Positions 2,529 through 22,982 of a stretch of DNA of 35,386 nt are shown in pieces. Source of the stretch: an uncultured Fimbriimonadaceae bacterium (lineage in GTDB: Bacteria; Armatimonadota; Fimbriimonadia; Fimbriimonadales; Fimbriimonadaceae); assembly GCA_937961665.1 (NCBI GenBank), contig CALGMO010000053.1:1-35386 (forward strand), written 5' to 3'. The notes below the pieces were generated by a model that did no database searches, was not told the DNA's origin, and worked only from the letters and a program-made list of their open reading frames with translations. The position numbers were made by a program, and so were the translations under genes. Positions within the stretch are counted from its first letter, which is position 1; each line of letters begins with the position of its first letter.

Positions 2529-3254
2529 ATGCTGGCTCTGATCGCAGCCGTGGGTCTGCTCGGCCCCGTGAACAGCCTGAAAACCGTCATCGGGGACATG
2601 ACGCTGCCCCACGAGGGCCGGCTCTCCGGGCTTCCGGACACGGTCGACTGGGCCGCCAAGCCACGGATCGGGATGGGTCTGGACCCCGGCAGGTTCCGGG
2701 CGTTCATCCCCTGGGGCCAAGCCTATCTCGAGCGTGGGACCGACTTCCCGCCGAACACCAGGGTCCAGATCCGGAACCTCCGGGCCTACCTGCTGTCCAA
2801 GAAGACGGGCCAGTGGCGCCTGGTCTCGTCCGGCGACATCGAGGGCGCCGCCTACGTGGAGGACTTCGCCGGGGACGTCAACAAGCCTGCCGACGTTCGG
2901 CCCGAGCCGGGTGGAGGCGTGTCCGTGAGGCTGGAGCGGGGCTTCAACTACCACTTCTGGGCCAGGGCCGGCCGGGTGCCGATCGAACCGGAGGACCTCG
3001 CGGGGGTGTTCGTCACCGTCCAGGCGCGCCTGATCCTCGGTGACCCCAAGGGTCCCGACGACCGGTCGAAGGCGCGGGTCCTGCTGGGCGCGGGAGCCGA
3101 CTACTGGCTCGCGGTCGACTCGAAGTGGGACCAGTGGAAGACCAACGGCGACGTGGCGATCGGGCGGCTCAAGCGGGTCACGAACTCTTGGCGGGCGTTC
3201 AACATCGCCGTGCCGCTCGAGACCGTGCGGCGCAACCCGCCGCCCCTAGAGTGA
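2529..3254 (+). CDS. exported protein of unknown function
   Basis: The product has 241 residues from the ATG at 2529. A GTG five codons earlier lies before the -10 and was not used. The first 15-20 residues (LALIAAVGLLGPVNS) are hydrophobic and suggest a weak signal peptide. The rest is soluble, rich in Trp and Asp, and predicted by eye to be mainly beta strands: FRAFIPWGQAYLERG, VQIRNLRAYLLSK, FVTVQARLILGD, ADYWLAVDSKWDQWK. I do not recognise a family. The gene stands alone between tRNA-Arg and a convergent membrane-protein gene whose last 9 bases overlap its own. Codon use resembles the neighbours. Confidence 0.75.
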   Translation: MLALIAAVGLLGPVNSLKTVIGDMTLPHEGRLSGLPDTVDWAAKPRIGMGLDPGRFRAFIPWGQAYLERGTDFPPNTRVQIRNLRAYLLSKKTGQWRLVSSGDIEGAAYVEDFAGDVNKPADVRPEPGGGVSVRLERGFNYHFWARAGRVPIEPEDLAGVFVTVQARLILGDPKGPDDRSKARVLLGAGADYWLAVDSKWDQWKTNGDVAIGRLKRVTNSWRAFNIAVPLETVRRNPPPLE

Positions 3255-4085
3255 CGCGCGCCCCGACGGATTCGTCTCCGGCACCTTCGACCAATCCACC
3301 TGGCTGCCGCGCACGCTGTGAGGGATGAGGAACACGGCGACCATCACGGCGAGCGCGACCCAGAAGGACAGTGCCGCGAGCTTCGGACGGGCCTTGGACA
3401 GCCACAGCGCCGCCACCCAGAAGAGCCAGGCGACGAGCGTCTTCGTGTCGGTCAGATCCTCGCCCACGGGCCATCCCGTCCACCAAGCGTCGAAGGCGTA
3501 CTTCTGCATCATCGGGCCGAGCACGAAGCCTCCCAAGGTGAGGAACGCGACGATCCACGGCGCCCAGCGCCACGCGTTCGGCTCTTTGAGCACGCAACCA
3601 ACGGCCGCCCGGAACGCGAACACCGGTCCCAGAAAGATCGCGAGGATGTGGATTGTCAGGAGCCACGTCGGGACGGGGTCCTTGTAGCGGAGGATCGCCG
3701 TGCCCTCCGTCGGCAGGATCTCCCGCGAGCCGTTGGGGGCCTCGAGCCGAACCTGGTACTCGAGCTTGGCGGCGCGCTGGAACTTGGGCAGCTCCGCGAC
3801 GAGCCGATCGTTCTCGCGCCGCATCTCGACGCTCTGCCACGGCTCGTCGGTGGGGTACCTGCGCCACACGAGCGTGCCCCGGAGGCTCGGGCCGGCGGCG
3901 AGCTCCACCCTGGCCGGCGCGGTGGTCTCTTGGGAGCGGATCAGCCTTCCGCCCACCCTCTCCCCTCCGACCATCGTCGACACGGAGATCGGGTAGGTGG
4001 GCCCCGTGCGCCGCTGGTAGACCAGCAGAGCGGCGGTCAGGATCACGGCCACGAGCCACGGGAGGATCGGTCGCCAGCGCTGCAT
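3246..4085 (-). CDS. multi-span membrane protein of unknown function
   Basis: The product has 279 residues. An N-terminal membrane segment (about 8-23, LPWLVAVILTAALLVYQ) is followed by an extracytoplasmic beta-rich domain of about 110 residues that includes GTLVWRRYPTDEPWQSVEM. Four more membrane helices fill the C-terminal half, beginning around LLTIHILAIFLGPVFAFR, IVAFLTLGGFVLGP, LVAWLFWVAALWL and FWVALAVMVAVFLIP. I do not recognise a family. The extracytoplasmic domain between helices might sense or bind something, but no motif supports a specific role. The start at 4085 was preferred over longer in-frame extensions because a -10 (CATAAT) ends 6 bases upstream. The end overlaps the convergent gene by 9 bases. 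Confidence 0.75.
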   Translation of the reverse strand: MQRWRPILPWLVAVILTAALLVYQRRTGPTYPISVSTMVGGERVGGRLIRSQETTAPARVELAAGPSLRGTLVWRRYPTDEPWQSVEMRRENDRLVAELPKFQRAAKLEYQVRLEAPNGSREILPTEGTAILRYKDPVPTWLLTIHILAIFLGPVFAFRAAVGCVLKEPNAWRWAPWIVAFLTLGGFVLGPMMQKYAFDAWWTGWPVGEDLTDTKTLVAWLFWVAALWLSKARPKLAALSFWVALAVMVAVFLIPHSVRGSQVDWSKVPETNPSGRASL

Positions 4086-4091
4086 GCCCGC

Positions 4092-4097
4092 ATTATG
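4092..4097 (-). promoter_or_regulatory. -10 element CATAAT overlapping the cca stop codon
   Basis: On the minus strand TGCCATAAT precedes the ATG at 4085 with 6 bases between hexamer and start codon. The TAA inside the hexamer (4095-4093) is the stop codon of the upstream cca gene. TGC before the hexamer makes an extended -10. Confidence 0.5.
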
Positions 4098-5457
4098 GCA
4101 ACTCGCCCGATCGGAGGGCCTCCACCAGCGCGGCGCGGGCCGCCTCGGAGTCCCCCGCAGGGATCGCGCCATCCAGCACCCTCTCCAGCAGCCACGCCTT
4201 GGCCCTGCCCACCTGAGGCCCCTCCGGCCACCCCGTCAGCTCCATGATCTGCCGGCCGCTGAGGGGGCTCTCGAGAACGGCGGGAGGAGACTGCTCGCTC
4301 AGACGCCGGATCCTCTCCCTCAGAGCGGCAACGTCGATCCGGCGCACGCCCGGCCTCAGCGCGGAGGCGTCCGCCTCCACCACGCTCAGGAGCTGGGGGA
4401 GCAGCGGCCCGAAGTCCCGCACGAGCCGACGCAGCGCGGAGTCGGTGAACCCCTCCGACGACATCAGACGCATGTGGCCTCGGACCAGCCTGGCCACCTG
4501 CGACGCCACCGCCGCCGGAAAACGCATCTCGCGCAGCCAACGCTCGGCGATCTCCGCACCCACGGCCTCGTGCCCGAGGAACCGGACTCTGCCGTCCGCA
4601 TCCACGGAGCGCGTCAGAGGCTTTCCCACGTCGTGGAGGAGCACCCCCAGGCTGGCGACCAGGTCGCCGGGACCCAGGTTCCTCAGGGCCAGAAGGGTGT
4701 GGTCCCACACGTCCAGGTGGTGGTAATCCCCCTGCGCGACGCCCTTCATCGCGGCGAGCTCAGGGGCGAACAGCTCGAGCAACCCGGTCAGCAGCAGGTC
4801 GTCCAGGCAGCGGTCGGCGTCCGGTAGGTCGAGCATCTTGACGAGCTCGTCGCGGATGCGCTCCCGGCTGACGATCGCGAGGCGGGCTCGCCTGTCGCGG
4901 ATGGCGTCCCAAAGGCCCTCGGCGGGCTCCAGGCCGATCTGCCAGCGGAACCGAACGGCCCGCAGCATCCGAAGCGGGTCCTCCTCGAACGTGTCCTCGG
5001 CGGCGATCGGAGTCCGCAGCACCCTTCGGCGCAGGTCGTCGAGCCCGGTGCCCAACGGATCGGCCAACGCGCCGTCGTGCAGGTTCTCGTACAGCGCGTT
5101 GACGGTGAAGTCCCTGCGCCGCGCGTCCTCCAGCAGGGTGGCGGGTCGGACCTCGGGCTTGCGGCTGTCGGCCCGGTAGGTCTCGCTCCGAGCCGTCACC
5201 AGCTCGACCGTCGCCCCTTCCACCATCACCATGGCCGTTCCGAACCGGGGGTAGGTGACGGGGTGGATCTCGGACAGTCCCCGCCTCCAGCACCATTCGG
5301 CGAACTCCAGAGCCGAGCCCTCCATCACCAGGTCAAGGTCGCTCGGCACGGGCCTCCCGAGCAACCGGTCCCGGACAGCGCCGCCCACCAGCCACAGACG
5401 GCCCTCCCACTCGGTGCCGCGCGTTCCCTCTCTCAGGCGCTCAAGAGGGCGACCCAC
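4093..5457 (-). CDS. cca: CCA tRNA nucleotidyltransferase with HD domain
   Basis: This 454-residue class II tRNA nucleotidyltransferase/poly(A) polymerase family protein adds or repairs the tRNA 3' CCA end. The head domain has LVGGAVRDRLLGR (residues 23-35) followed by the metal-binding pair Asp40/Asp42 in SDLDL. RRDFTVNALYEN and DPLGTGLDDLRRRVLRTP follow, then EDPLRMLRAVRF of the neck. An HD-type domain in the C-terminal half contains LLHDVGKPLTR and GHEAVGAEIAERWL. The start is GTG at 5457, overlapping the upstream receiver gene by 17 bases, so the two are translationally coupled. The tRNA-Arg in this window already encodes CCA, so the enzyme may mainly repair, or may act only as an A- or CC-adding enzyme with a partner. 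Sequence alone does not settle this. Confidence 0.9.
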   Translation of the reverse strand: MGRPLERLREGTRGTEWEGRLWLVGGAVRDRLLGRPVPSDLDLVMEGSALEFAEWCWRRGLSEIHPVTYPRFGTAMVMVEGATVELVTARSETYRADSRKPEVRPATLLEDARRRDFTVNALYENLHDGALADPLGTGLDDLRRRVLRTPIAAEDTFEEDPLRMLRAVRFRWQIGLEPAEGLWDAIRDRRARLAIVSRERIRDELVKMLDLPDADRCLDDLLLTGLLELFAPELAAMKGVAQGDYHHLDVWDHTLLALRNLGPGDLVASLGVLLHDVGKPLTRSVDADGRVRFLGHEAVGAEIAERWLREMRFPAAVASQVARLVRGHMRLMSSEGFTDSALRRLVRDFGPLLPQLLSVVEADASALRPGVRRIDVAALRERIRRLSEQSPPAVLESPLSGRQIMELTGWPEGPQVGRAKAWLLERVLDGAIPAGDSEAARAALVEALRSGELP

Positions 5458-5908
5458 GGCGCTGCTTCCGAGCCCTCTGGAACTCCGCGGTTCGCTCCCA
5501 CTTCGACACCAAGCGGATGTCCCGCCGCCTCTCGTCGAGAGCCTCGCGGATCTTGCCCACGAGCACCTCGTACACGTCGGTGCCGGGACGGTTCTTCTCG
5601 ATGTAGTCGAAGGCGCCGCGCTTCATGCAATCCACGGCGTTGGCAACCTGGCCGTAGGCGGTCATAACGATGACTTGGGCGAAGAGGTCGCGCGCGAAGG
5701 CGGCCTGCAGCACGCGGACGCCGGCCTGCGGGTCCTCCATGCTCATGTCTGTGACGACGACGTCGTAGGGAAGCTCCGACTCGGAAATCTTCTCAACGGC
5801 TTGCGCCGCGGACTCGGCCAAGTCGACCTCCCAGCCCTCCCTCTCGAACCTGCGCTTGAGGGCGCGCAGCACGTCCTCCTCATCGTCGATGACCAAGATG
5901 CGAGCCAT
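5441..5908 (-). CDS. stand-alone response-regulator receiver protein
   Basis: This 155-residue CheY-like receiver has no DNA-binding or enzymatic output domain. The acidic pocket is Asp8-Asp9, the phospho-acceptor is Asp54 in VVVTDM, the switch threonine is Thr83 in VMTAYG, and the conserved lysine is Lys105 in YIEKN. The receiver is closest in appearance to the NtrC group. The C-terminal 40 residues (REALDERRRDIRLVSKWERT onward) form a charged helical tail. No histidine kinase is nearby, so signal and target are unknown. Its own -10 (TATACT) lies 8 bases before the ATG, and its 3' end overlaps cca by 17 bases. Confidence 0.88.
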   Translation of the reverse strand: MARILVIDDEEDVLRALKRRFEREGWEVDLAESAAQAVEKISESELPYDVVVTDMSMEDPQAGVRVLQAAFARDLFAQVIVMTAYGQVANAVDCMKRGAFDYIEKNRPGTDVYEVLVGKIREALDERRRDIRLVSKWERTAEFQRARKQRRGSPS

Positions 5909-5916
5909 TCCTAGCC

Positions 5917-5922
5917 AGTATA
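5917..5922 (-). promoter_or_regulatory. -10 element TATACT of the receiver gene
   Basis: TATACT on the minus strand ends 8 bases before the ATG at 5908. It lies in the 19-base gap after the preceding gene's stop codon (5930-5928). A start at the expected distance leaves a leader of 0-2 bases. Confidence 0.55.
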
Positions 5923-5927
5923 GTCCC

Positions 5928-7364
5928 TCAGCGGCCGCCGGAGCCGATCGGGCCGGTCAGGGGCGGTTTGGCCTCTGCGCCGCCGCCGGATCCGCCTTCC
6001 CTCTTCTGCCCGGGCGGCGTCGGCACCTCGTCCTCCTCGGCGTACACGTCGCCTTGCAGGCCTTGGGCCGACCACTGATCGTCGTTCTCCTTGGTGGAGA
6101 ACTCGAACCAGTCCGCGGCGAGGTCGTCGCCGAGCGAGGTCTTGATGCGGGTGTCCTTCTTGCCCGGAGAGCTGACGAGCCTCAGCGTCTCCTTCTCGCC
6201 GTCGTAGAAGGCGCGGTCGCACCACCCGTAGCGCCACCTTCCGGCGGCGAGCTCCTGGCGCGCCTGGGGCCTGCCCTCGATCATCGCACGGCGCTCACCC
6301 TCCGCGTACCAGTATTCGATCCGCTCGGCCAGCACCACCACGGGATACTTCCGGGCCGACTTCGTCGATCGGACCTCGTCGTCCGCCTTCTTGTCCTCGC
6401 CCGGCGGGGCCGGCGGACGGTTCCTCGCGATCTCCTCCGGAACCTCCGGCTGGAAGGGCGGGATCTCCTCCTCCTTCAACTCCTGCCGGTCCTCCGGCTT
6501 AAGGATCATCTGCACCTTGCCCGTCAGCACGGCGCGCTTCTCCTTGCGGTACACGACGGCCTTCTCGCAGGTCAGGTTCGCCTTCTTGCTGAAGTAGCGC
6601 ACCCCGCCCGTGGCCGTGATCACGTCGGTCTTGGTGTCGCGCTCGATGCGGGGCGCCTTCACGATCACCTCGCCGTCGGTGGCCTCGGCGTCCAGCCAGA
6701 CCTCCAAGCCGGTCGCCGACCGAGTCGCGCCCGACGTCTTGAACGTCCACTTGGACTTCTTCTGCTGCTTGGGCTCGTCCGACAGCGAGAGGGCCGCGAG
6801 GCCGACCCACGTGGCCGGCCCGACCTTGAAGCTGCCGTCCTCGGGCGAGTAGGTCAGGGACGCCGCCTCCACCGACCCGCCGAACAGCCGGCCTCGCACG
6901 AGCCCGGGCACGTGGAGCCTGCCGTTGCGGGCATCGGCCTCGAACGCCGCCACGACCAGATCCATCTCGTCGCCGCGGATCTTGGCTCCGCTGGGCACCG
7001 TCAGCCGGCCGGTGACGTTGTTGTACGACGCGCGCGTGGCTTCGAACTGGTACCGGCCGCCCCGACCTTGGTAGAACCCGTCGCGGACGTAGAACAGGTC
7101 CGTGGCCTGGCGGTCCCTGCGGATGTCCAGCCGCTCCACCTTGGCGCCGCCGACCTGCTCGGCGCCCTCGAAGAACGCCAGCTCGACGTCGTCCATGCGG
7201 ATGGCGACCGAGGCCTCCGCGGGCCCCGGCGTCGCCCGGAACCGTGCGAAGGGATCCAGGCTCAGCAGGTGGCGCGTCCAAGCCGCCAGGCCCGCCGCGA
7301 GCACGCCCGCGGCGCCCCAGGCCAGCGCCGCTCCGATCCGTCGAAACGTCGCCCTCGCCGCCAT
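5928..7364 (-). CDS. LptC/LptA(OstA)-like export-bridge protein
   Basis: The product has 478 residues with one N-terminal membrane anchor (about 9-30, IGAALAWGAAGVLAAGLAAW). Repeated beta-strand segments follow, of the kind found in the LptC/LptA/OstA jelly-roll superfamily that carries lipopolysaccharide or lipids between membranes. The first block (about 50-140) contains FYQGRGGRYQFEATRASYN and PSGAKIRGDEMDLV. A later block (TATGGVRYFSKKANLTCEKA, then EKRAVLTGKVQMIL) resembles the OstA N-terminal repeat. The last 100 residues are low-complexity and Pro/Gly-rich at the very end. Its start codon shares one base with the stop of the upstream lipoprotein gene (TGATG), so the genes are coupled. 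The anchor plus long beta region suggests LptC and LptA functions in one chain, which is inference. Confidence 0.65.
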   Translation of the reverse strand: MAARATFRRIGAALAWGAAGVLAAGLAAWTRHLLSLDPFARFRATPGPAEASVAIRMDDVELAFFEGAEQVGGAKVERLDIRRDRQATDLFYVRDGFYQGRGGRYQFEATRASYNNVTGRLTVPSGAKIRGDEMDLVVAAFEADARNGRLHVPGLVRGRLFGGSVEAASLTYSPEDGSFKVGPATWVGLAALSLSDEPKQQKKSKWTFKTSGATRSATGLEVWLDAEATDGEVIVKAPRIERDTKTDVITATGGVRYFSKKANLTCEKAVVYRKEKRAVLTGKVQMILKPEDRQELKEEEIPPFQPEVPEEIARNRPPAPPGEDKKADDEVRSTKSARKYPVVVLAERIEYWYAEGERRAMIEGRPQARQELAAGRWRYGWCDRAFYDGEKETLRLVSSPGKKDTRIKTSLGDDLAADWFEFSTKENDDQWSAQGLQGDVYAEEDEVPTPPGQKREGGSGGGAEAKPPLTGPIGSGGR

Positions 7365-8689
7365 CAGTTCGCCACGAAGCTCCCCACGTCGCTGATCGTC
7401 CGGCTGGAGGTCCCGTTCGCCACGCCGAGCACGAGGAAGTAGTACCGCCGACCGGGGGCCAGACGAGGGCCATCGTAGGACACGCTCGTTCCCGACGTGA
7501 AGCCGCTCTCCCAGACCGGATCGATGGCCATCGCCGGGAACCGGTCGTAGAGGTAGACCTTGTAGCGCTCCGCTCCGAGCGCCGCGAACCAGCGGAACGG
7601 CCGCGGGCCGAGGCTGGCCGGATCCAGCCGTAGGTCGCCCAGCGTCCTCGCCGAAACCCTCTCGCTGGGCGCGCTCTCCGAGCGGCCGCCGTCGGGGTAC
7701 GTGGCGTTCAGGCACGTCACCTCGTAGTAGTAGGTTCGACCTTCGATCAGAAACTCGTCGTTGTCGGCGTAGAACGAGGCCGTCGGATCACGGAGGAGCT
7801 CCACGCTGTTCAGACTCCCCGAGGGGGTGGTTCCGCGGTAGATGCCGAAGCCGAACAGGTTCCGGTCGACGATCGGGTCCCAGTACAGGTCGATCTCGAT
7901 CGGATTCCCGAGGATCGTGGATCGCGTCTTCGCCCCGGGGCGCCTGCCCTCCCTCGCCTCGAGCCAGTCCTTGAAGGCGCGGAACGCTTGGGCGCTCTCG
8001 CGCGACCGAGAGATCGCAGCCGGTGCGGTCCACGAGACAGCCTCGACGTTCGTCGGCGGATCGAGGGCGACGTCCGCGGCGTCGTTCAGCACGAAGTTCA
8101 GCGCCCGGGTCTCGCCCGCGACGAGGGTCACCGTCACCGAGTCCGACTCGAAGCCGCGCCCGTTGGCCATCACCAGGTAGCGGACGCCCGACTGGAGGTC
8201 GCGCAGCAGGGCCTCGCCGTTCGCATCGGTCACCTCGGTGGCGCCGCTCAGGGCGTCCGGGTTGTCGGGGATGGCGAACAGCCGCGCCCCCTGCAGCACG
8301 TACCCGAAGCGGTCGCGCACCTTCGCACGGATGGCGGCGGTCTGCGTCGAGCGGACCATCGTGATGTTCACGCTCTTGGCGCGTTCGCGGTCGTAAACCC
8401 GGGCCAGGTTGGACCCGACGTACCGCACCCCGTCGATCGTGATGTCCGCGCGAACGGTGGCGTCCACCGCGGGAACGTTGCGCAGCAGGTACTGCCCGGC
8501 GGAGTTCGTCGTGGCGGTCCTGCCCCCGACGCCGCTCACGGTCACGCGGGCCCCGCGCACCACGCCGCCGTCGGGGCCGAACACCACGCCCGCCACCTCG
8601 CCGTACCCCGCGCCAGAGCCGGTCCCGCCGCCGCCTCCGCACCCGGCGGCCACGGCCAGAAGCCCGATCCATGCCCAATGTCTGCCCAT
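7364..8689 (-). CDS. lipoprotein with carboxypeptidase-regulatory-like and Fn3-like domains
   Basis: The product has 441 residues. The N-terminus WAWIGLLAVAAGC is a lipoprotein signal with Cys17 as the lipidated residue, followed by a Gly-rich linker. Two transthyretin-like/carboxypeptidase regulatory-like beta domains come next. The first (about 30-105) begins EVAGVVFGPDGGVVRGARV, and the second (about 118-205) has TDANGEALLRDLQSGVRYLV. Two fibronectin-III-like modules follow: about 215-345, with IEIDLYWDPIVDRNLFGFGI and YYYEVTCLN, and about 350-441, with YKVYLYDRF and PGRRYYFLVLGVAN. No catalytic motif is seen, so an envelope binding or scaffolding role is likely. AGGAG lies 6 bases before the ATG. 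This is one of the few starts here with a well-placed Shine-Dalgarno site, as expected for an internal operon gene. Confidence 0.75.
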   Translation of the reverse strand: MGRHWAWIGLLAVAAGCGGGGGTGSGAGYGEVAGVVFGPDGGVVRGARVTVSGVGGRTATTNSAGQYLLRNVPAVDATVRADITIDGVRYVGSNLARVYDRERAKSVNITMVRSTQTAAIRAKVRDRFGYVLQGARLFAIPDNPDALSGATEVTDANGEALLRDLQSGVRYLVMANGRGFESDSVTVTLVAGETRALNFVLNDAADVALDPPTNVEAVSWTAPAAISRSRESAQAFRAFKDWLEAREGRRPGAKTRSTILGNPIEIDLYWDPIVDRNLFGFGIYRGTTPSGSLNSVELLRDPTASFYADNDEFLIEGRTYYYEVTCLNATYPDGGRSESAPSERVSARTLGDLRLDPASLGPRPFRWFAALGAERYKVYLYDRFPAMAIDPVWESGFTSGTSVSYDGPRLAPGRRYYFLVLGVANGTSSRTISDVGSFVAN

Positions 8690-8750
8690 CGCCTGCTCCT
8701 CTCGGATCCTTTCTTCTTCACACGCGCGGCGCGCCGACTGGTTTTGCGCG

Positions 8751-9806
8751 TCAGCCCATCGTCTGCTGGATGGCCTCGACGTTGACCCGGGCCAGCGTCC
8801 TCAACTCCTCCGTTCGGGCCTCGAGCCTCGCACAGGCGGCCTCGCGGTCCTTCAAGAGACTCTGGACTCTGGCGAACAGCGCGTCGGCCGACGCCTTGCC
8901 CGGTGCCAACGGCAGCTCGGTCGCCCGGGCGAACGCCGCCACCTTCGGATCGTAGTCGACCATCACGGAGGGAACCCCCACCGTAGCCGCGAGGATGCCC
9001 GCATGCAGCCGCACCGCCACGACCGCCTCCATGCGTCGGATCCTTTGCTGCACCTGCACCGGAGACGGCACCCGTCTCAGCTCCGGCACCTTGCCGCCCT
9101 GCCGCTTGGCGATCTGGTCCAGCAGCGGCCCGTCGAACGCCCGGTCCATCTCGATCAGCACCGGCATCAGGCCGGAGTCGAACAGCTTGCGCGCCAAATC
9201 GCCGAACACCGCGGCGATGGAAGGATCGTCCTTCACCGGCCTGGGCGCGAGGCCTACGGTGCGCATCGAGCCTACGCCGAACGCCTCCCCCTCGCCGCCC
9301 TGAGGGTTGGGCAGGAGGAACGCGGGGTCCGCGCCCAGGCGCACCGGACGGCTGACGCCGAGCGACTTCAGCGCCTGCGCCGAGGCCGGGTCCCGGACCA
9401 CGATCGCGTCCGCCTTCTCGAACGCCGCGGCCGCCCATCGCTTGCCCAGCGTCCTCCGGAGCGGCCCGACGCCCTGGCCCACCAGCAGGACGCGCTTGCC
9501 GGCGCGCGTGGCCTCCGACACGAGGCTCGAGTAGTAGAACACGCTGCGGAGGCTGGTCGCGTCCTGGAAGATGCTCCCCCCGACGAACACCAGCGCGTCG
9601 CTGTCGCCGAGGGCCCTGCGAAAGGCCGCGCGATCCTTCCTCGGCACGCTCGGCAGGCCGTGCACCCGGTAGGTCTCGTCGGGAGCGCCGCTCATCACGG
9701 TGAACGAGTGGGCGTAGGGCCGCAATCCGTGGATCAGGCCGAGGAGGACGGCATCGTCGCCGAGGTTGCCGCATCCCAGATAGCCCGCAAGCAGGAGTCT
9801 AGCCAT
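8751..9806 (-). CDS. csaB: polysaccharide pyruvyl transferase CsaB
   Basis: The product has 351 residues and two Rossmann-like halves of the pyruvyl transferase family. The N-terminal motif LLLAGYLGCGNLGDDAVLLG matches CsaB. VFVGGSIFQDATS, LVGQGVGPLR, IVVRDPASAQALKSLGV and the C-terminal VVAVRLHAGILAATVGVP are the other family blocks. CsaB adds ketal-linked pyruvate from phosphoenolpyruvate to a cell-wall polysaccharide, which creates the ligand for S-layer-homology domains in Bacillus and Thermus. The ATG at 9806 overlaps the end of the upstream DUF5693 gene by 8 bases (ATGGCTAG). No SLH-domain protein lies in this window. The next gene begins 61 bases downstream. Confidence 0.88.
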   Translation of the reverse strand: MARLLLAGYLGCGNLGDDAVLLGLIHGLRPYAHSFTVMSGAPDETYRVHGLPSVPRKDRAAFRRALGDSDALVFVGGSIFQDATSLRSVFYYSSLVSEATRAGKRVLLVGQGVGPLRRTLGKRWAAAAFEKADAIVVRDPASAQALKSLGVSRPVRLGADPAFLLPNPQGGEGEAFGVGSMRTVGLAPRPVKDDPSIAAVFGDLARKLFDSGLMPVLIEMDRAFDGPLLDQIAKRQGGKVPELRRVPSPVQVQQRIRRMEAVVAVRLHAGILAATVGVPSVMVDYDPKVAAFARATELPLAPGKASADALFARVQSLLKDREAACARLEARTEELRTLARVNVEAIQQTMG

Positions 9807-11781
9807 TGTGGTCCCCGTCCTTCCCGATTCCCTCGGTCTGCCGGTCGGCCGAAGCCCCCGCAGGACCGGCCTCCGGGTCCTCGGCCGGGCAAAGGCCGTC
9901 CTCCACGGCTTGCGGAGCCGACGGTGGCGCCCCAGCCGCCGTGCCGCCGGAGACCGGCTGGATGGCCTGCGGGACAAGGCAGGAGAGGAGCCAGCCGAGG
10001 GCACCGCCGACCGCCACGCCAACCAGCACGCGGGCCAAGCCGAGCCAGAACGGCGAGTGGATGTGGCAGAAGGTGTTCACGATGCTCGTCTGGCCGATCA
10101 TGCCGACCGCCAGCAGCAGCGCCAGCCACCCGGCGTTGGAGGGCGCCCGGTCGCCCGCCGTCCGCCACCTCGCCCACAGCGCCAGCCCCAAGAAGAGCGC
10201 GGGGTGGCCGATGAACACCTCCTTGGTGCGTGGCCGCACCAGCAGCAGCTGGTCGAGCAGGCTGCGGAGCCGCAGTTCCAGGCCGCTCACGGCGCCGGGG
10301 TTGTCGTTGCCGGTGCGCATCAGCATGAACGCCACGGCGCCGAGCAGCGCGACGCCGAGCAGAGCCTGCGTCCAGAGCACCGGCCGAACCAGGGCCTGGC
10401 GCCAGTCGCACCAGCGAGCGAACGACCAGACGCCGACGATCGCGATCGGAAAGAAGTGCGCCGCCTTGACCCCGAGGAACTGCTCCGCCCGAACCATGTA
10501 CGGGAGCCCGTTCAGCAACCCAGCCACCGCGAGCCCGCCCACCAGGCTGACCCCGCAGGCGACGAGGTAGACGACCCAGGGCCTCCGGCCGAGAGCGGCC
10601 TCGGCCGCCCTCAAGGCCAGCAGGGGTGCGGCTATGGCCCCGGCCAAGGCCAAGAGCGGCCGGGCGCCGGGAGACCAGCAGGCCAGCCCCAGCAGACCCA
10701 GCGCGGCCGCCCCAACCGAGAACGCTCCGCCGCCTAACCCGTACGACTCCGCGGCGGCCAGAACCAGAGCGGCGACCGCGAGGCCGGTCAGCGCGAACAG
10801 CCAGGCCGGGCCGGCGGGATCCTCGTACGGCTTTGCGGGACCCAGCGCCAGGCCCTCGGAACGGACCGCACGCGCCACCCGGCCCACGAGCCGGGCGAAC
10901 TCGTCCAGCGGGGTCGCGCCCGCGTCGGACATCGGGCGCACCAGCAGCATCCGGATGCCCCGCTCGCTCGCCGCCCGGGCGAAACGCTCCAGGTACTCGC
11001 GCTCGGTCATCTTGTCCATCTCCGCGCCTTGGGCGGTGTGCAGCCGAACGACGATGTCCGGCGCCTTCGCAACCATTGCGGAGTCGCCCGCGATCTTGGC
11101 GAACTCGGGTGAGACGTAGGCCATTCCCGCCTGCCGCAGGGCGTCGGCCGTCTCCGCCAGCAGAGCCCGATGGCCGAGCACCTTGTCGCCCAACGGCAGA
11201 TAGGCCTTGGCGCCGAGCTCCCTAGCCCACGCGATCGTGGCGCGGACCGAGTCTGCGGACATCGGCGCGTTGGAGCCGCGCCACACGACCGTCAGTCCGG
11301 AGGACCAGACCGCCTTGGCCTTCTTGGCGTCCAACCCGAGGCTGACCGTGCGGAGCGCCTCCACCGGCACCCCCGGGTTGGAGACCACGCCGGGCTCCAC
11401 CGCCTTGACGGGACTGTGCGGAAACCGGATGCGGATGGCGCGCACGATGCGCTCCTCCGCCCCCGGCCAGCAGACGATCGTCCCGCCCTCGCCGAAACCC
11501 AGGCGATCGGTGGAGATCCAGCCTTGGAGCGTCTCCTCCTCCAGCACCACCGCCTGCACGCCCTGTGCCTTCAGAACGCCGAGAGCCTGCTGGAAGCCAA
11601 CTCCCGACGCCGCGGCCATCTGGGTGACGACCGGCTCCTCCACGGCGAGGGACACGGCGCGGTTCCTCGCCTCGGCGCGCCAGCGCAGGCCTCCGCCGAC
11701 CAACCCCAGCACGGCGACGGAGCCGACGGCCAGCAGCCACCAGCGCCGAAACTCAAGCGGCGTAACGACTCTCATAGACAT
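9799..11781 (-). CDS. DUF5693 family polytopic membrane protein
   Basis: The product has 660 residues. One membrane helix near the N-terminus (about 14-31) is followed by a large extracytoplasmic domain (about 35-325) with MAAASGVGFQQALGVLKAQG and an (alpha/beta)-type segment. About ten further helices fill roughly 330-620. The late segments TKEVFIGHPALFLGLALW and VNTFCHIHSPFWLGLARV sit in the membrane region and resemble DUF5693 proteins, which are often encoded next to csaB. The function is unknown. A role in making or moving the polysaccharide that CsaB modifies is inferred from linkage. Two in-frame ATGs exist, at 11781 and 11775, and the gene overlaps the rhomboid gene by 29 or 23 bases. 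The C-terminus is a Pro/Ala-rich cytoplasmic tail. Confidence 0.8.
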   Translation of the reverse strand: MSMRVVTPLEFRRWWLLAVGSVAVLGLVGGGLRWRAEARNRAVSLAVEEPVVTQMAAASGVGFQQALGVLKAQGVQAVVLEEETLQGWISTDRLGFGEGGTIVCWPGAEERIVRAIRIRFPHSPVKAVEPGVVSNPGVPVEALRTVSLGLDAKKAKAVWSSGLTVVWRGSNAPMSADSVRATIAWARELGAKAYLPLGDKVLGHRALLAETADALRQAGMAYVSPEFAKIAGDSAMVAKAPDIVVRLHTAQGAEMDKMTEREYLERFARAASERGIRMLLVRPMSDAGATPLDEFARLVGRVARAVRSEGLALGPAKPYEDPAGPAWLFALTGLAVAALVLAAAESYGLGGGAFSVGAAALGLLGLACWSPGARPLLALAGAIAAPLLALRAAEAALGRRPWVVYLVACGVSLVGGLAVAGLLNGLPYMVRAEQFLGVKAAHFFPIAIVGVWSFARWCDWRQALVRPVLWTQALLGVALLGAVAFMLMRTGNDNPGAVSGLELRLRSLLDQLLLVRPRTKEVFIGHPALFLGLALWARWRTAGDRAPSNAGWLALLLAVGMIGQTSIVNTFCHIHSPFWLGLARVLVGVAVGGALGWLLSCLVPQAIQPVSGGTAAGAPPSAPQAVEDGLCPAEDPEAGPAGASADRQTEGIGKDGDHNG

Positions 11782-12421
11782 AGCGCGCCAAGACCCGATC
11801 CCGGCCCCCCATCACCAGCACCGTCACCATCCCCGCCAGAAAGCCTCCGATGTGCGCCCAGTTGGCAACCCCCTGGCTGGGAAAGAACACGTCCTTCAGG
11901 AAGAAGAACCCGAGGAGGATGAACGCCTGAACCTCGACCTCCCAAAGGTAGACCATCACGCGGATGGAGTTCGTCGGGAAGAGCAGCAGGTACATCCCCA
12001 ACACCCCGCTGATGGCTCCCGAGGCGCCGACGATCGGCACGCCGGAGAAGGGGGCGACGAACACTTGGGCGACCAGAGCGACGAAGCCCCAAGCGAAGTA
12101 GTACAGACCGAACCTCCAAGGCCCGATGGCCTGCTCGATCGCCCGGCCGAACACGGCGAGGTAGATCATGTTGCCGCCCAGGTGCCACAGGTTGGCGTGG
12201 AGAAACTGGGCCGTGAAGAGCGTCGCCAGCGGGGCCCTCTCGCCACCCCGCAGGGCGTCGATCAGCTCGTTGGGTCGGCATCCGAGGTCGGAGAACAGCA
12301 CCGGAGGCCCGAACAGCGAGCCCCCGCGGTCCCACAGGTAGATCGCGACGTTCAGGAAGACGAGCGTCCAGACCACCGTGGACGGCCGCCGCAGCACCTG
12401 GTCGTCACCGATCGGGATCAT
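11753..12421 (-). CDS. rhomboid family intramembrane serine protease
   Basis: This 222-residue protein has six predicted membrane helices. The catalytic Ser134 is in GASGA, and the partner His190 is in NWAHIGGF on a later helix. LHANLWHLGGNMIYLAVFG is the conserved loop-1/TM2 element with the H-x3-N-type residues (His80, Asn84). Rhomboids cut single-span membrane proteins within or near the bilayer. The substrate is unknown. The position as first gene of the DUF5693-csaB operon suggests a part in surface-protein processing, which is inference. The start at 12421 is supported by a -10 (TAGAAT) 8 bases upstream. The gene faces a divergent hydrolase gene with only 45 bases between the two start codons. 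Confidence 0.92.
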   Translation of the reverse strand: MIPIGDDQVLRRPSTVVWTLVFLNVAIYLWDRGGSLFGPPVLFSDLGCRPNELIDALRGGERAPLATLFTAQFLHANLWHLGGNMIYLAVFGRAIEQAIGPWRFGLYYFAWGFVALVAQVFVAPFSGVPIVGASGAISGVLGMYLLLFPTNSIRVMVYLWEVEVQAFILLGFFFLKDVFFPSQGVANWAHIGGFLAGMVTVLVMGGRDRVLARYVYESRYAA

Positions 12422-12429
12422 GCACCGCC

Positions 12430-12435
12430 ATTCTA
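12430..12435 (-). promoter_or_regulatory. -10 element TAGAAT of the rhomboid operon
   Basis: GGTAGAAT on the minus strand ends 8 bases before the rhomboid ATG. It is the likely promoter for the whole minus-strand operon down to 5928. The gap carries no usable Shine-Dalgarno site (GGCGGTGC). The -10 of the divergent hydrolase gene begins 16 bases away. Confidence 0.5.
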
Positions 12436-12451
12436 CCGACAGACGTTCTGG

Positions 12452-12457
12452 CATAAT
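12452..12457 (+). promoter_or_regulatory. -10 element CATAAT (extended TGG) of the hydrolase gene
   Basis: TGGCATAAT is an extended -10 and ends 9 bases before the GTG start at 12467. It has no recognisable -35. Its footprint must overlap that of the divergent rhomboid promoter. Confidence 0.5.
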
Positions 12458-12466
12458 CCGCGACGG

Positions 12467-13684
12467 GTGGCACCGAGAGCTTTCTGGGGTCCGACGACCG
12501 TTCTCCTCGCCGCGGCGGTGTGCGCCATGGCGCGGGCTCAGGGCGGCCCGCCTGCGATCGACGCCCCGCTGCCGACGGTCGCGTTCCAGCCTTGGAGGAG
12601 GGTGGAGTCGCTCGCCGGCCCCGCCGAATACAGGGCCTCCTTCCCCAGCGCCTTCGTCTCCGGCGTGCCGAACAACGACACGGTCCATCTGTCCGCGTTC
12701 CTTCCCGAAGACCGGCCGGGACCGTATCCGGCGGTGATCGTCCTGCACTACCTGGGAGCCGACGACCTCAGGCCCACGAGGCTGCTGGCGGAGGAGCTGA
12801 ACGAGCGGGGCATCGCCGCGGTGCTGCTCGCCCTGCCGTACCACATCCAGCGGACTCCGCCCGGCGCGCGGTCCGGCGAGATGGCGCTCTCGGGAGACCC
12901 GGCGAGAATCCGCGACGTGGTGGTGCAGTCCGTTCTGGACGTTCGGCGCTCGCTGGACTTCCTTGCAGCCCGTCCCGAGATCGACGGCAAGAGCGTCGGC
13001 ATCGCCGGCATCAGCCTCGGGGCGGTTATCGCCTCGCTCGCTTACTCCGCGGACTGCCGACTTCAGCGCGCGGCGATCGTGCTCGGCGGTGCCGATCTCG
13101 CCCACATTCTCTGGCACAGCTCGCTGACCGGACCCACCCGCGAGGCGATGAGGAGGCGGGGCTTGGACCTGGACGCGTTGCGGCGAGAGCTGGCGGACGT
13201 CGAGCCCCTGAACCGCGCCTCCTCGCGGACCGACGGAAGGGCGTTCCTGGTCGGGGCGCGCTTCGACACGGTGATCCCCGCGGAGGACGTGCGCAAGCTC
13301 GCCGAGGCGCTGCCCAACGCGACGACCCTGTGGCTCGACACCGGCCACTACGGCGGGGTGTTCGTCCAGCGGCGCGTCGCCCGCACGGTGGCCTCGTTCT
13401 TCGCCGAGGAGTTCGCCGGGCGAAGGTTCGTCGCCCCCGCACGCTTCTATGCACCGACGGTGCGCCTCGGCCTTCTCGGCGACTCCGCCGACGGATTCCA
13501 GGTGGGCGCCGCCCTGGACCTCTTCCGGACAGGCTCGGCCCGCGGCTGGATCGGCGCCGCCCTCGCCACGCCGAACGGCGCCAAGGCGTTCGTGGGCTAC
13601 CAGGCCGGTCCTTCGCTGGGCGGGGGCCTGACCCTGGGGCCGGGGGGGCCATCGGCGGCCGTCTTCTGGAGCGTCGTGCTGTGA
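12467..13684 (+). CDS. exported alpha/beta hydrolase
   Basis: The product has 405 residues from GTG 12467. The N-terminus (VAPRAFWGPTTVLLAAAVCA, then MARAQ) is a signal peptide with likely cleavage after ARA. The alpha/beta-hydrolase core has AVIVLHYLGADD (oxyanion region), the nucleophile Ser183 in GISLGA, Asp267 in GARFDTVIP and His294 in DTGHYGG, a complete and correctly ordered triad. The layout resembles acetyl-xylan-esterase or dienelactone-hydrolase-like exported enzymes. The last 90 residues, after about 310, are Gly-rich and beta-prone (LGLLGDSADGFQVGAALDLF, GAALATPNGAKAFVGYQAGP) and look like an added surface or barrel-like tail. The substrate is unknown. The stop codon overlaps the start of the following GNAT gene by 4 bases (GTGA). 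Confidence 0.85.
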   Translation: MAPRAFWGPTTVLLAAAVCAMARAQGGPPAIDAPLPTVAFQPWRRVESLAGPAEYRASFPSAFVSGVPNNDTVHLSAFLPEDRPGPYPAVIVLHYLGADDLRPTRLLAEELNERGIAAVLLALPYHIQRTPPGARSGEMALSGDPARIRDVVVQSVLDVRRSLDFLAARPEIDGKSVGIAGISLGAVIASLAYSADCRLQRAAIVLGGADLAHILWHSSLTGPTREAMRRRGLDLDALRRELADVEPLNRASSRTDGRAFLVGARFDTVIPAEDVRKLAEALPNATTLWLDTGHYGGVFVQRRVARTVASFFAEEFAGRRFVAPARFYAPTVRLGLLGDSADGFQVGAALDLFRTGSARGWIGAALATPNGAKAFVGYQAGPSLGGGLTLGPGGPSAAVFWSVVL

Positions 13685-15372: not shown

Positions 15373-18300
15373 ATGCGCGCACGATCGGCGGCCTTTCTGC
15401 TTCTCCTAGCGGGAGCCTCGCTCTGCGGGGCTGCGGAGGACAAGCCGAAGACCCCCGACGAGATCAAGGGGGAGCGCGTCGCGCAGGAGTACCGGGAGCT
15501 GGCATCCTCGGTGGATCTGGCCCAGATTGAGCGCACCTTCCGAGACGTGGCGGCGTTCGGCCCGAGGCTCGCGGGCAGCGAGGGCGAGGCCGAAACTCTG
15601 GCCTACGCCGAGCGGCGCTTCCGGGAGCTGGGCCTCCGGGGCATCCGCAGGCACACGTTCCGCGTGACGGTGCCCGACCCCGACGCCGTGGGCGAGCTCG
15701 CCTCCTCGGACGGTCGGTGGAGGGTGCCGGTCTATCCCATGTGGCCCAACCTCGTCCGTACGTCCACCTGCGACGTCCAGGGGAGGGTCGTGTACGGCGG
15801 CGACGGCTCCCTGGAGTTCCTCGCCGGCCGCGAGGTGAAGGGTTCCATCGTGCTGATGGAGTTCAACTCGGCGGGGAGGTGGCGCAACGCCGCCAAGCTC
15901 GGCGCCAAGGCGGTCGTGTTCCTCTCGCCGCGCCAAACCCTGCGGATGGAGGCCGAGCAGCGCTTCAGCAGCGTGCCGCTGAACGTCCCCCGCTTCTATC
16001 TGGAGACGCGCCTCGCCGGTCCGGTGCTCGAGGCCGCCACGAGGGGAGCCACGGCGCGGCTCTCCTGCGTGCAGAGGTGGATCGTGCGGGAATCCGCCAA
16101 CGTGATCGGCGAGCTTCCCGGCACCGACCGGTCGCTGGCGGGCGAAACGATCGAGCTGTTCGTACCGGTCGACTCCATGTGCGTGGTGCCGAAGATGGCC
16201 TACGGCGCGGAGGGTATCGGGAACCTGGCCGCCGCGCTCGAGCTGGTCCGCATCTATCGCCAGCGCGAGCATCGCAGGCCTCTCCGCGTGATCGCCTCCG
16301 GATCCCACGCGCTGGCCCTGCAGGGCGCCCGCGAGTACGTCGACGACTGGATTCGGAACAATCGCCCCGCGACGCTCCTCACGGTGACTCTGGACCTCGC
16401 CAGCGGCAACCGGGCCCTGGGAGTCTTCGGCCGCGGGTTCTTCGTGGACTACCGGTGGGAGGTCCACAGCGCGGTCGCAAGCCTGGCGAGGATCCTCCGC
16501 AAGCACGCCGAGAGGATGGCGCCGATCCTCGGCGCCCCGGATCCCCGCAACACCATCAGCGACACGATCAACCAGCAGGACAACCGCTGGTGGAGCAACA
16601 ACATCCCCACCCGGTTCGCGTTCGACTGCGAGATGTTCCTGATGGCCTCGGCGAACGCCGTCACGATGGCGACCATCGACGACAGCCGCCCCTTGGTGGA
16701 CACGCCGCTGGACACGCTGGAAAACGTCAACCCGCTGAACATCCTCCGGCAGACGCAGACCCTCGCCTGCGCGTTCCTCCACCTGCTCAACGACACCTCG
16801 GCCAAGGGGGCGACCACCGACTTCCGCTTGGACCTGGAGCCCGCCAAGCCCAAGCGAATGACCCTCACCGGCGGCTTCGCCGTGGTCGAGGGGCGCGTCG
16901 TCCGCTACGACCCGCTCAAGAGCTTCGTCCCCGACGTTCCCGTCGCCGGCTCCCTGGCCGTCAACCTCAACGCCAACAAGACGATGATGGGCGTGCGCGG
17001 CGACATGGTGACGACGACCGAAGGCGAACAGGCGCACTTCCGGTTCGTCGGCGTGGCCCCCACCACGTGCTACTACCAAGGCTGGGGGTCGAGCTGGGTC
17101 CGTCCGACCAGGCTCGCCGCGTTCCACATCGCTCCGAACGGCGAGATCGACCAGGCTCCGGCGGACGGCCTGCGCGGAAGCATGGACTATCCCCGCACGT
17201 TCGAGCTGAAGACGGGCTTCAAGTCCACGCCGATCGTGGTGTTTCCCTGCGTGGCCACCAACTTCTACGACCTGGTGGACCCGCAGGACCTGAAGGCCCT
17301 CACCGACTACCAGGTCCTCGACGCGGCCACGGACGCCCCGCCGGAGAACTTCGGGTTCTTCCGGGACGACAAGGACATGAGGATCAACACCGAGTCCGAG
17401 GAGACCGCGGTGATGTTCACCATGCCCGGCCAAAGGTTCAAGCTGCTGATGGGCACGGGCCTCGGCGAGGTGCGCCTGATCCTGACGAACGCGGACGACC
17501 GGCACCCCGCCGGCAAGGGCTATCTCGCGTTCGGGGCTTCCACCGCCGGCGCGACGGGCCGCGACGCCATCGCCGTCGGGGGCGTGTTCCCGTTCGTCGC
17601 CCTGCAGACGGCCCGCGACATCCTGGCGATCAACCAAGACCGGTTGAACAAGTTCTCGAAGTACCGGATCGTGAGCAAGGGCGTGGAGGACCTCCAGGCC
17701 ACGGCGCGCGACGAGGCCTCCCTGGCCGAAGGCGCCCTGGCCGACCGCGAGTGGCCGGCGGTCGACCAGCACTCGCGCGCCGCCTGGGGCTACGCGCTGC
17801 GCGCCCACCCGGTAATCCAAGGAACGGCCAACGACGTGGTGAACGGGGTGGTCTTCTACCTGTTCCTGATCATCCCGTTCAGCTACTTCCTGGAGAGGCT
17901 GCTCTTCGGCAGCCGCAGCCTCACGGCGCAGCTCGTCGGGGCGGCGGGCGTGTTCTTCGCCTCGTTCGGTCTGCTGTACGTCATCCACCCCGCGTTCGAG
18001 ATCGTGACGAACCCGTCGATGATCTTCATCGCGTTCGTGATGGGCGCGCTGAGCATCATCGTGATCGGGTTCATCCTAGGCAAGTTCGAGTCCTCCCTGA
18101 AGGCGCTGAAGAAGGCGCAGAGCGGTGTCCACGAGGTGGACATCCGGCGCATGAGCGTCGCGATGGCGGCCTTCAACCTCGGGGTGAGCAACATGAGGCG
18201 CCGCAAGGCCCGCACGTTCCTCACCACGCTCACGCTGGTGGTGATGACGTTCATCGTTCTGAGCTTCACGTCGATCGTGAACGAGATCCAGCTGAAGGAG

Positions 18301-21465: not shown

Positions 21466-22982
<1,517 letters not shown>

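Follow-up and report, generated by a model that had tools for sequence, protein, structure and literature searches.

Gene content of the locus

We analyzed a stretch of 35,386 nucleotides (hereafter the window) from contig C53 of a 2.88-Mb metagenome-assembled genome, 95% complete, of a member of the Fimbriimonadaceae (Armatimonadota). Five genes lie one after another on its minus strand, between positions 12421 and 5928, and encode a rhomboid protease, a DUF5693 protein, the pyruvyl transferase CsaB, a lipoprotein, and a protein related to the lipopolysaccharide (LPS) transport bridge, here called LptCA. The points of interest at this locus are the lock between CsaB and DUF5693, a natural fusion of LptC to LptA, and the joint loss of two further proteins, X and Y, that are encoded there in relatives.

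The first gene (12421..11753) encodes a predicted rhomboid intramembrane serine protease of 222 amino acids with Ser134 and His190 as the putative catalytic residues (Pfam Rhomboid, 107.5 bits). It is followed by the DUF5693 gene (11781..9799; Pfam PF18949, 370.2 bits against a cut-off of 29), whose product is predicted to have an N-terminal membrane helix, an extracytoplasmic barrel at about residues 41 to 320, and about nine further membrane helices. Next is csaB (9806..8751), encoding a polysaccharide pyruvyl transferase of 351 amino acids (NCBIfam TIGR03609, 223.7 bits, or 223.9 in the genome search, against a curated cut-off of 213.1). The fourth gene (8689..7364) encodes a predicted lipoprotein of 441 amino acids, with the start ...LLAVAAGC and two CarboxypepD_reg-like stretches (60.5 bits), and the fifth (7364..5928) encodes LptCA, a predicted single chain of 478 amino acids with LptC as its N-terminal half and LptA as its C-terminal half, assigned from its relatives and its fold. 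Matches to Rhomboid, DUF5693, PS_pyruv_trans (128.3 bits), and CarboxypepD_reg all exceeded the Pfam cut-offs, and the profile-predicted identities of the rhomboid, DUF5693, CsaB, and the lipoprotein with CarboxypepD-like domains are certain. An S-layer identity for the lipoprotein was also considered and rejected: the NCBIfam match scored 31.5 bits where 1400 are required, and it overlaps with the CarboxypepD-like domains, which are common ones.

On recomputed coordinates, three of the four junctions overlap, by 29, 8, and 1 bases, and the remaining one is a 61-base gap, in agreement with an earlier description of this DNA from its letters alone (the sequence-only reading), which had described the five genes as one overlapping operon. 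GAGGAG, which resembles a ribosome-binding site, lies ahead of the lipoprotein start.

Conservation of the rhomboid, DUF5693, and CsaB genes

Distribution of these genes was analyzed in 61 genomes and at named loci of other Fimbriimonadaceae and Armatimonadota, the nearest being UBA8783, whose DUF5693 protein is 85% identical. The named loci are the best-scoring 80 of at least 583 and overlap the 61-genome set, so that counts from the two are not independent. Profile matches to DUF5693, CsaB, and S-layer homology (SLH) domains were found in 60, 59, and 58 of the 61 genomes, respectively. Of the 37 genomes of the window's family, 36 have DUF5693 and CsaB on one contig and strand, no more than 300 bp apart, and in the 37th the distance between profile ends is 421 bp. 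Spacing within 300 bp was also found in families f3 (1/1 genome), f4 (1/1), and f5 (7/7). Outside one further family, f2, every sampled genome with both genes (46 in all) has them side by side. Among the named loci with sufficient flank, CsaB lay within 1 kb downstream of DUF5693 in 63 of 75; at one of the 12 exceptions, L097, a broken or cut CsaB frame adjoins. Rhomboid, DUF5693, and CsaB form the lasting core of the locus, and conservation of an envelope locus across the Armatimonadota is supported. A search for DUF5693 on plasmids gave no match, and its profile also matched in control genomes from Deinococcota and Thermotogota.

The rhomboid is probably active, because among the 66 aligned rhomboids from these loci the counterpart of Ser134 is conserved in all 66 and that of His190 in 65. 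It shares the rhomboid fold and the Ser-His dyad with rhombosortase and GlpG but scored far below the NCBIfam cut-offs for both (30.7 versus 84 bits and 22.8 versus 250 bits, respectively).

A fusion of LptC and LptA

The sequence-only reading had seen a lipid-bridge-like protein in the product of the fifth gene. This was borne out, by split relatives and by fold, and the protein is identified from them as LptC fused to LptA. At four loci (L130, L144, L145, and L175) the homologue consists of two adjoining genes, following CsaB and a gene called Z below. The product of the first passes Pfam LptC (31.3 to 46.2 bits against 21) and aligns to positions 22 to 173 of the fused model, whereas that of the second passes Pfam LptA/LptD_N (40.1 to 48.5 bits against 20.4) and aligns to positions of about 150 to 430. 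The structure model of the window protein (mean predicted local distance difference test score [pLDDT] of 82.5) has a helix at residues 2 to 35 (pLDDT of about 50 to 67) followed by strands, and Foldseek matches 1 to 17 to this model were all Lpt proteins. In the VIA structure comparison, residues 51 to 182 matched LptC 6mjp_C (Z 14.8, root mean square deviation [rmsd] 2.4, 128 residues), and residues 161 to 295 matched LptA 2r19_B (Z 13.1, rmsd 2.0, 120 residues). A single-sequence search of the PDB found no match for LptCA or CsaB, and an LptCA profile reached LptA in the PDB at an E value of 0.29 only.

LptCA was present in 59 of the 61 genomes, and an LptCA-type match was found in at least 102 of 111 genomes sampled across the phylum. 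Among the matches listed, read by eye, one stretch spans both halves in at least 26 genomes (17/17 of the window's family, 7/7 of family f8, and 2/2 of family f7), and many other genomes had two neighboring shorter matches. Like the Lpt bridge of LptC and LptA, LptCA as modeled combines both jelly-roll domains with an N-terminal membrane helix, in genomes with LptF/G; unlike that bridge, it is one polypeptide rather than two. The lptC and lptA genes of E. coli are described as separate and overlapping (PMC4986956), and in diderm Firmicutes LptA and LptC are described as two proteins of about 200 amino acids each (PMC5007114). Our literature search found no published description of a natural LptC-LptA fusion, and the passages of PMC8871954 consulted make no mention of one. 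The fusion occurs in every sampled genome of the window's family that was read whole, which suggests a one-chain LPS bridge anchored in the inner membrane that does not need a free LptA.

Other parts of the LPS machinery are widespread. LptF/G matches were found in 61 of 61 genomes, with two genes in the window's genome, and LpxC in 21 of 21. In family f2, LptCA lies about 0.2 kb from LpxC in two of the three genomes searched for LpxC. Two f2 examples have LptCA beside LpxC rather than CsaB (genome G041, contig C1, 1673650-1674916; genome G043, contig C66, 40437-42453).

Two gene blocks and the shared absence of X and Y

Iterated profiles gave the usual order in relatives as rhomboid-DUF5693-CsaB-X-lipoprotein-Y-Z-Lpt. 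X is about 870 amino acids long, and its sequence, read by eye, suggests an outer-membrane barrel; Y is a secreted protein of about 900 amino acids and Z a lipoprotein of about 300. Neither X nor Y matched a Pfam family, the only match being one to fn3 below its cut-off (15 bits), and a profile of X against the PDB gave three meaningless matches only (E 0.54 to 0.60). At locus L105, the genes at 8116-10620 and 10942-13638 on the plus strand correspond to X and Y and look like a barrel and secreted partner pair. Many relatives have longer paralogs of X (about 1160 to 1200 amino acids), and the C-terminal third of Y recurs in proteins of about 950 to 1000 amino acids, likewise in many relatives.

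The genomes that lack X are precisely those that lack Y, 8 of the 61, the window's genus among them (Fisher p = 3e-10), although these eight represent only about five independent losses. In this count weak paralog matches were scored as absent, and G043, with only a fragment of X at a contig end, as present. X and Y are not required substrates of the rhomboid, as the genus that lacks them retains the rhomboid gene. LptD was rejected as the default identity of X: 8 of 61 genomes have no X, and 59 have LptCA.

The locus consists of two blocks that are often joined, rhomboid-DUF5693-CsaB(-X) and Y-Z-LptCA. Outside f2, 34 of 39 genomes had Y and LptCA no more than 1.8 kb apart, as against none of 14 in f2; for CsaB and Y, a distance of no more than 7 kb was found in 18 of 38 genomes. 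The five genes of the window, taken as a unit by the sequence-only reading, are not an ancestral unit: about half of the genomes have the two blocks together, and in the rest they are separate. The window has a reduced, joined form, which is also found at loci L103 and L107.

The DUF5693 protein

The AlphaFold model of DUF5693 (pLDDT 89.2, predicted template modeling score 0.85) consists of a helix at residues 13 to 39, the barrel at 41 to 320, and then about nine membrane-length helices. The barrel filled the list of fold matches, which therefore concern the barrel only. Best among them were 1v6t (LamB/YcsF; Z 13.2, rmsd 3.9, 192 residues) and 2nly (DUF610, a divergent polysaccharide deacetylase; Z 11.8, rmsd 3.8, 196 residues), two folds that we take to belong to one deacetylase superfamily. 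DUF5693 differs from both in sequence (9 to 10% identity), in its additional nine or so membrane helices, and in that their catalytic residues are not matched. Six conserved residues (E82, R168, N171, E226, H248, and R282) are placed by the model at the ends of the barrel strands, as in an active site. Three conserved loops, at 423-441, 489-520 (RTGND...RPRTKE), and 569-577 (NTFCHxHTP), would lie on the same outer side as the barrel if the barrel is outside. A search of DUF5693 against the PDB gave no match, and our literature search found no paper on it.

Our preferred reading of the model is that DUF5693 would be a periplasmic-side enzyme of a sugar-polymer pathway; its exact reaction is a guess. 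Being widespread, unnamed, and locked to csaB, it is a candidate for an unassigned step in the making of the SLH ligand.

CsaB and a putative SLH-domain porin

A putative SLH-domain porin, for which the sequence-only reading had suggested a search, was found in the window's genus. In genomes G001 and G002 the gene is whole. Its product has an SLH domain and, as judged by eye from the sequence, a stretch resembling a coiled coil and a barrel-like C-terminal part with Phe as its last residue. The 660-amino-acid protein of locus L085 matched residues 47 to 210 of D. radiodurans SlpA (E 2.5e-11). It also matched three entries named S-layer homology domain-containing (8bz2, 8bys, and 8bym), which we take to be Veillonella OmpM. 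The L085 and L092 proteins end in ...LSVKF, and the SlpA_C barrel model scored 19.9 on the porin against a cut-off of 35. Its SLH domains carry the motif W...GYPDG...SRYE, and the W, the G, and the Arg of TRAE/TRYE in SLH domains are described as binding sugar and ketal-pyruvate (PMC10628300). As described in the same source, the tether of the Negativicutes is to a polyaminated wall and not to a pyruvylated polymer. SlpA-like proteins in Armatimonadetes have already been listed (PMC9388160).

MotB is the sole OmpA-domain protein in the window's genome, and Pal-type anchoring was rejected there on this account; OmpA-domain proteins, one or more per genome, occur in all 21 genomes searched. The genus resembles systems of CsaB-SLH anchoring (SlpA in Thermus and Deinococcus, OmpM in Veillonella) in having the CsaB equivalog and a putative SLH-coiled-coil-barrel porin, and the search of the window's genome showed no OmpA protein of the Pal type. 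What sets it apart from them is a csaB that is tied to DUF5693 and a rhomboid and has an LPS bridge as its neighbor, an arrangement for which we found no published description. A literature search for Fimbriimonas together with S-layer homology also found no paper. The genome has a second pyruvyl-transferase-like gene, at about 8674-10020 on the minus strand of contig C78 (locus L096; 74.6 bits, below the CsaB cut-off).

Candidate promoter and probable transcription unit

A -10-like TANNNT box, TAGAAT (12435..12430, minus strand), lies 8 nt ahead of the rhomboid ATG and is a candidate leaderless promoter for the operon. TANNNT occurs in the window at 0.00096 per position, which puts the chance of a box in any 8-nt zone at about 0.8%. 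The conservation of this box was examined at 50 rhomboid loci kept from 69 candidates, the 19 without a recognizable start being left out. TANNNT was found 5 to 10 nt ahead of the rhomboid start at 16 of the 50 and 7 to 14 nt ahead at 29, compared with about 6 expected from positions 15 to 39; the 7-to-14-nt zone was picked after the data were seen, and the 29 and the 6 were tallied by hand. A second box, TATACT (5922..5917, minus strand), lies 8 nt ahead of the response-regulator ATG and is the likely start of the next unit, bounding the operon. That unit (3246-5908, minus strand) encodes a CheY-like response regulator (5908..5441), a CCA-adding enzyme, and a protein of unknown function whose gene ends at 3246.

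One leaderless or near-leaderless transcript for the five genes is likely. Internal promoters or terminators, which the sequence-only reading had named as evidence against a single unit, did not appear: the 60 nt ahead of each internal start (four in all) and of the CCA-adding gene downstream contain no TANNNT, and the terminator scan gave a single weak hit, at 11909..11891 in the rhomboid gene, which is no more than shuffled sequences lead one to expect. A scan for the sigma-70 consensus gave no match. Of the leaderless promoter proposed at 12430, the box stands, and the single transcript is something that we infer.

Proposed role and alternative explanations

We favor, with modest confidence, the interpretation that the locus is one transcription unit of diderm, LPS-type Fimbriimonadaceae that serves both supply and anchoring of the outer membrane. 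CsaB would add a pyruvate ketal, in the cytoplasm, to a lipid-linked unit of what is presumably a wall polymer. The sugar-enzyme-like barrel of DUF5693, facing the periplasm, may then handle the pyruvylated unit by polymerizing it, trimming it, or transferring it to the wall. Once complete, the polymer would be the SLH ligand of OmpM/SlpA-like porins, tying the outer membrane to the wall, and LptCA would serve as a one-piece, inner-membrane-anchored bridge for LPS from LptB2FG toward the outer membrane. Some membrane protein of the envelope is the probable target of the rhomboid, and the lipoprotein would be accessory. The sequence-only reading had proposed a module that builds and attaches an outer layer; the conserved envelope locus, the SLH porin, and the LptC-LptA bridge speak for it, and the joint action of the proteins stays conjectural. 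A narrower proposal, which we hold only tentatively and think rather doubtful, is that DUF5693 is the periplasmic partner of CsaB that joins the pyruvylated polymer to the wall, so that, with LptCA, the locus would couple LPS supply to SLH-ligand anchoring in an LPS-bearing Terrabacterial phylum. How diderm Terrabacteria build and fasten their outer membrane bears on the loss and retention of outer membranes in bacterial evolution.

Several observations weigh against the supply-and-anchoring interpretation. Conserved gene order in Armatimonadota, which the sequence-only reading had called for, holds for DUF5693 and CsaB outside f2, but within f2 this pair was linked in none of 13 genomes (12 drafts, with the genes on different contigs, and one single-contig genome); unlinked homologues in relatives, which it had counted as evidence against itself, thus occur in that one family. 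LptCA of f2 is also located elsewhere. A rhomboid lay within 1 kb upstream of DUF5693 at just 41 of 65 named loci. The window's family had CsaB and LptCA on the same strand within 12 kb in 16 of its 36 genomes and f5 in 3 of its 7, and none of the f3 (0/1), f4 (0/1), or f2 (0/13) genomes did. The sole SLH match above cut-off in the window's genome lies in a gene truncated at a contig end. By direct profile, the window's Lpt protein fell below the Pfam cut-off (LptD_N, 15.9 versus 20.4). Pfam LptD matched in 0 of 21 genomes, which decides nothing, because among the controls that model matches only E. coli and Caulobacter. The fold matches of the DUF5693 barrel to 1v6t and 2nly are only 1 to 2 Z above generic TIM barrels, many of which are near Z 11, and Foldseek gave no match to the DUF5693 model at E ≤ 0.001.

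The separation of the blocks in about half of the genomes suggests another explanation, possible though on balance unlikely, in which a CsaB module (rhomboid-DUF5693-CsaB-X) and an Lpt module (Y-Z-LptCA) are independent neighbors that touch in the window only through the loss of X, Y, and Z. The looser linkage of CsaB to Y than of Y to LptCA and the absence of X and Y from the window's genus fit this well. However, deeper-branching relatives also have the blocks joined, as CsaB-Z-LptC-LptA in L130, L144, L145, and L175, and the join is therefore old or recurrent. In addition, X, beside CsaB, and Y, beside LptCA, were lost from the same genomes, which ties the blocks together.

The nearness of CsaB to LptCA, with LpxC and LptF/G present, could also mean that CsaB pyruvylates LPS or an exported surface glycan rather than a wall polymer, and would hence be located by the LPS bridge. 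Other pyruvyl transferases act on exopolysaccharides. We consider this improbable, given that CsaB passes the S-layer/CsaB equivalog far above the WcaK models (223.7 versus 54.4 bits) and that the genus SLH porin carries the pyruvate-binding motif. Least probable of all, and by our estimate very improbable, is ordinary operon packing, that is, growth-linked membrane genes sharing a promoter without a common pathway. Compact genomes often have genes with short overlaps, and the next unit, of plainly mixed function, has overlaps of 17 and 80 bases, but the DUF5693-CsaB adjacency in 46 of 46 genomes outside f2 and across the phylum is beyond what packing explains.

Other genes in the window

An alpha/beta hydrolase gene (ABHD18-like; 12421-13684) diverges from the rhomboid gene, and its relatives diverge at the same locus in many Fimbriimonadaceae. 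Farther along are a full-length 16S rRNA gene (21467-22982, minus strand) and a gene for a protein of 1518 amino acids (15373-19929, plus strand) with PA and MacB/FtsX permease domains. The N-terminal half of this protein reads like an M28-type peptidase, and we presume that it joins a peptidase and an ABC permease in one chain.

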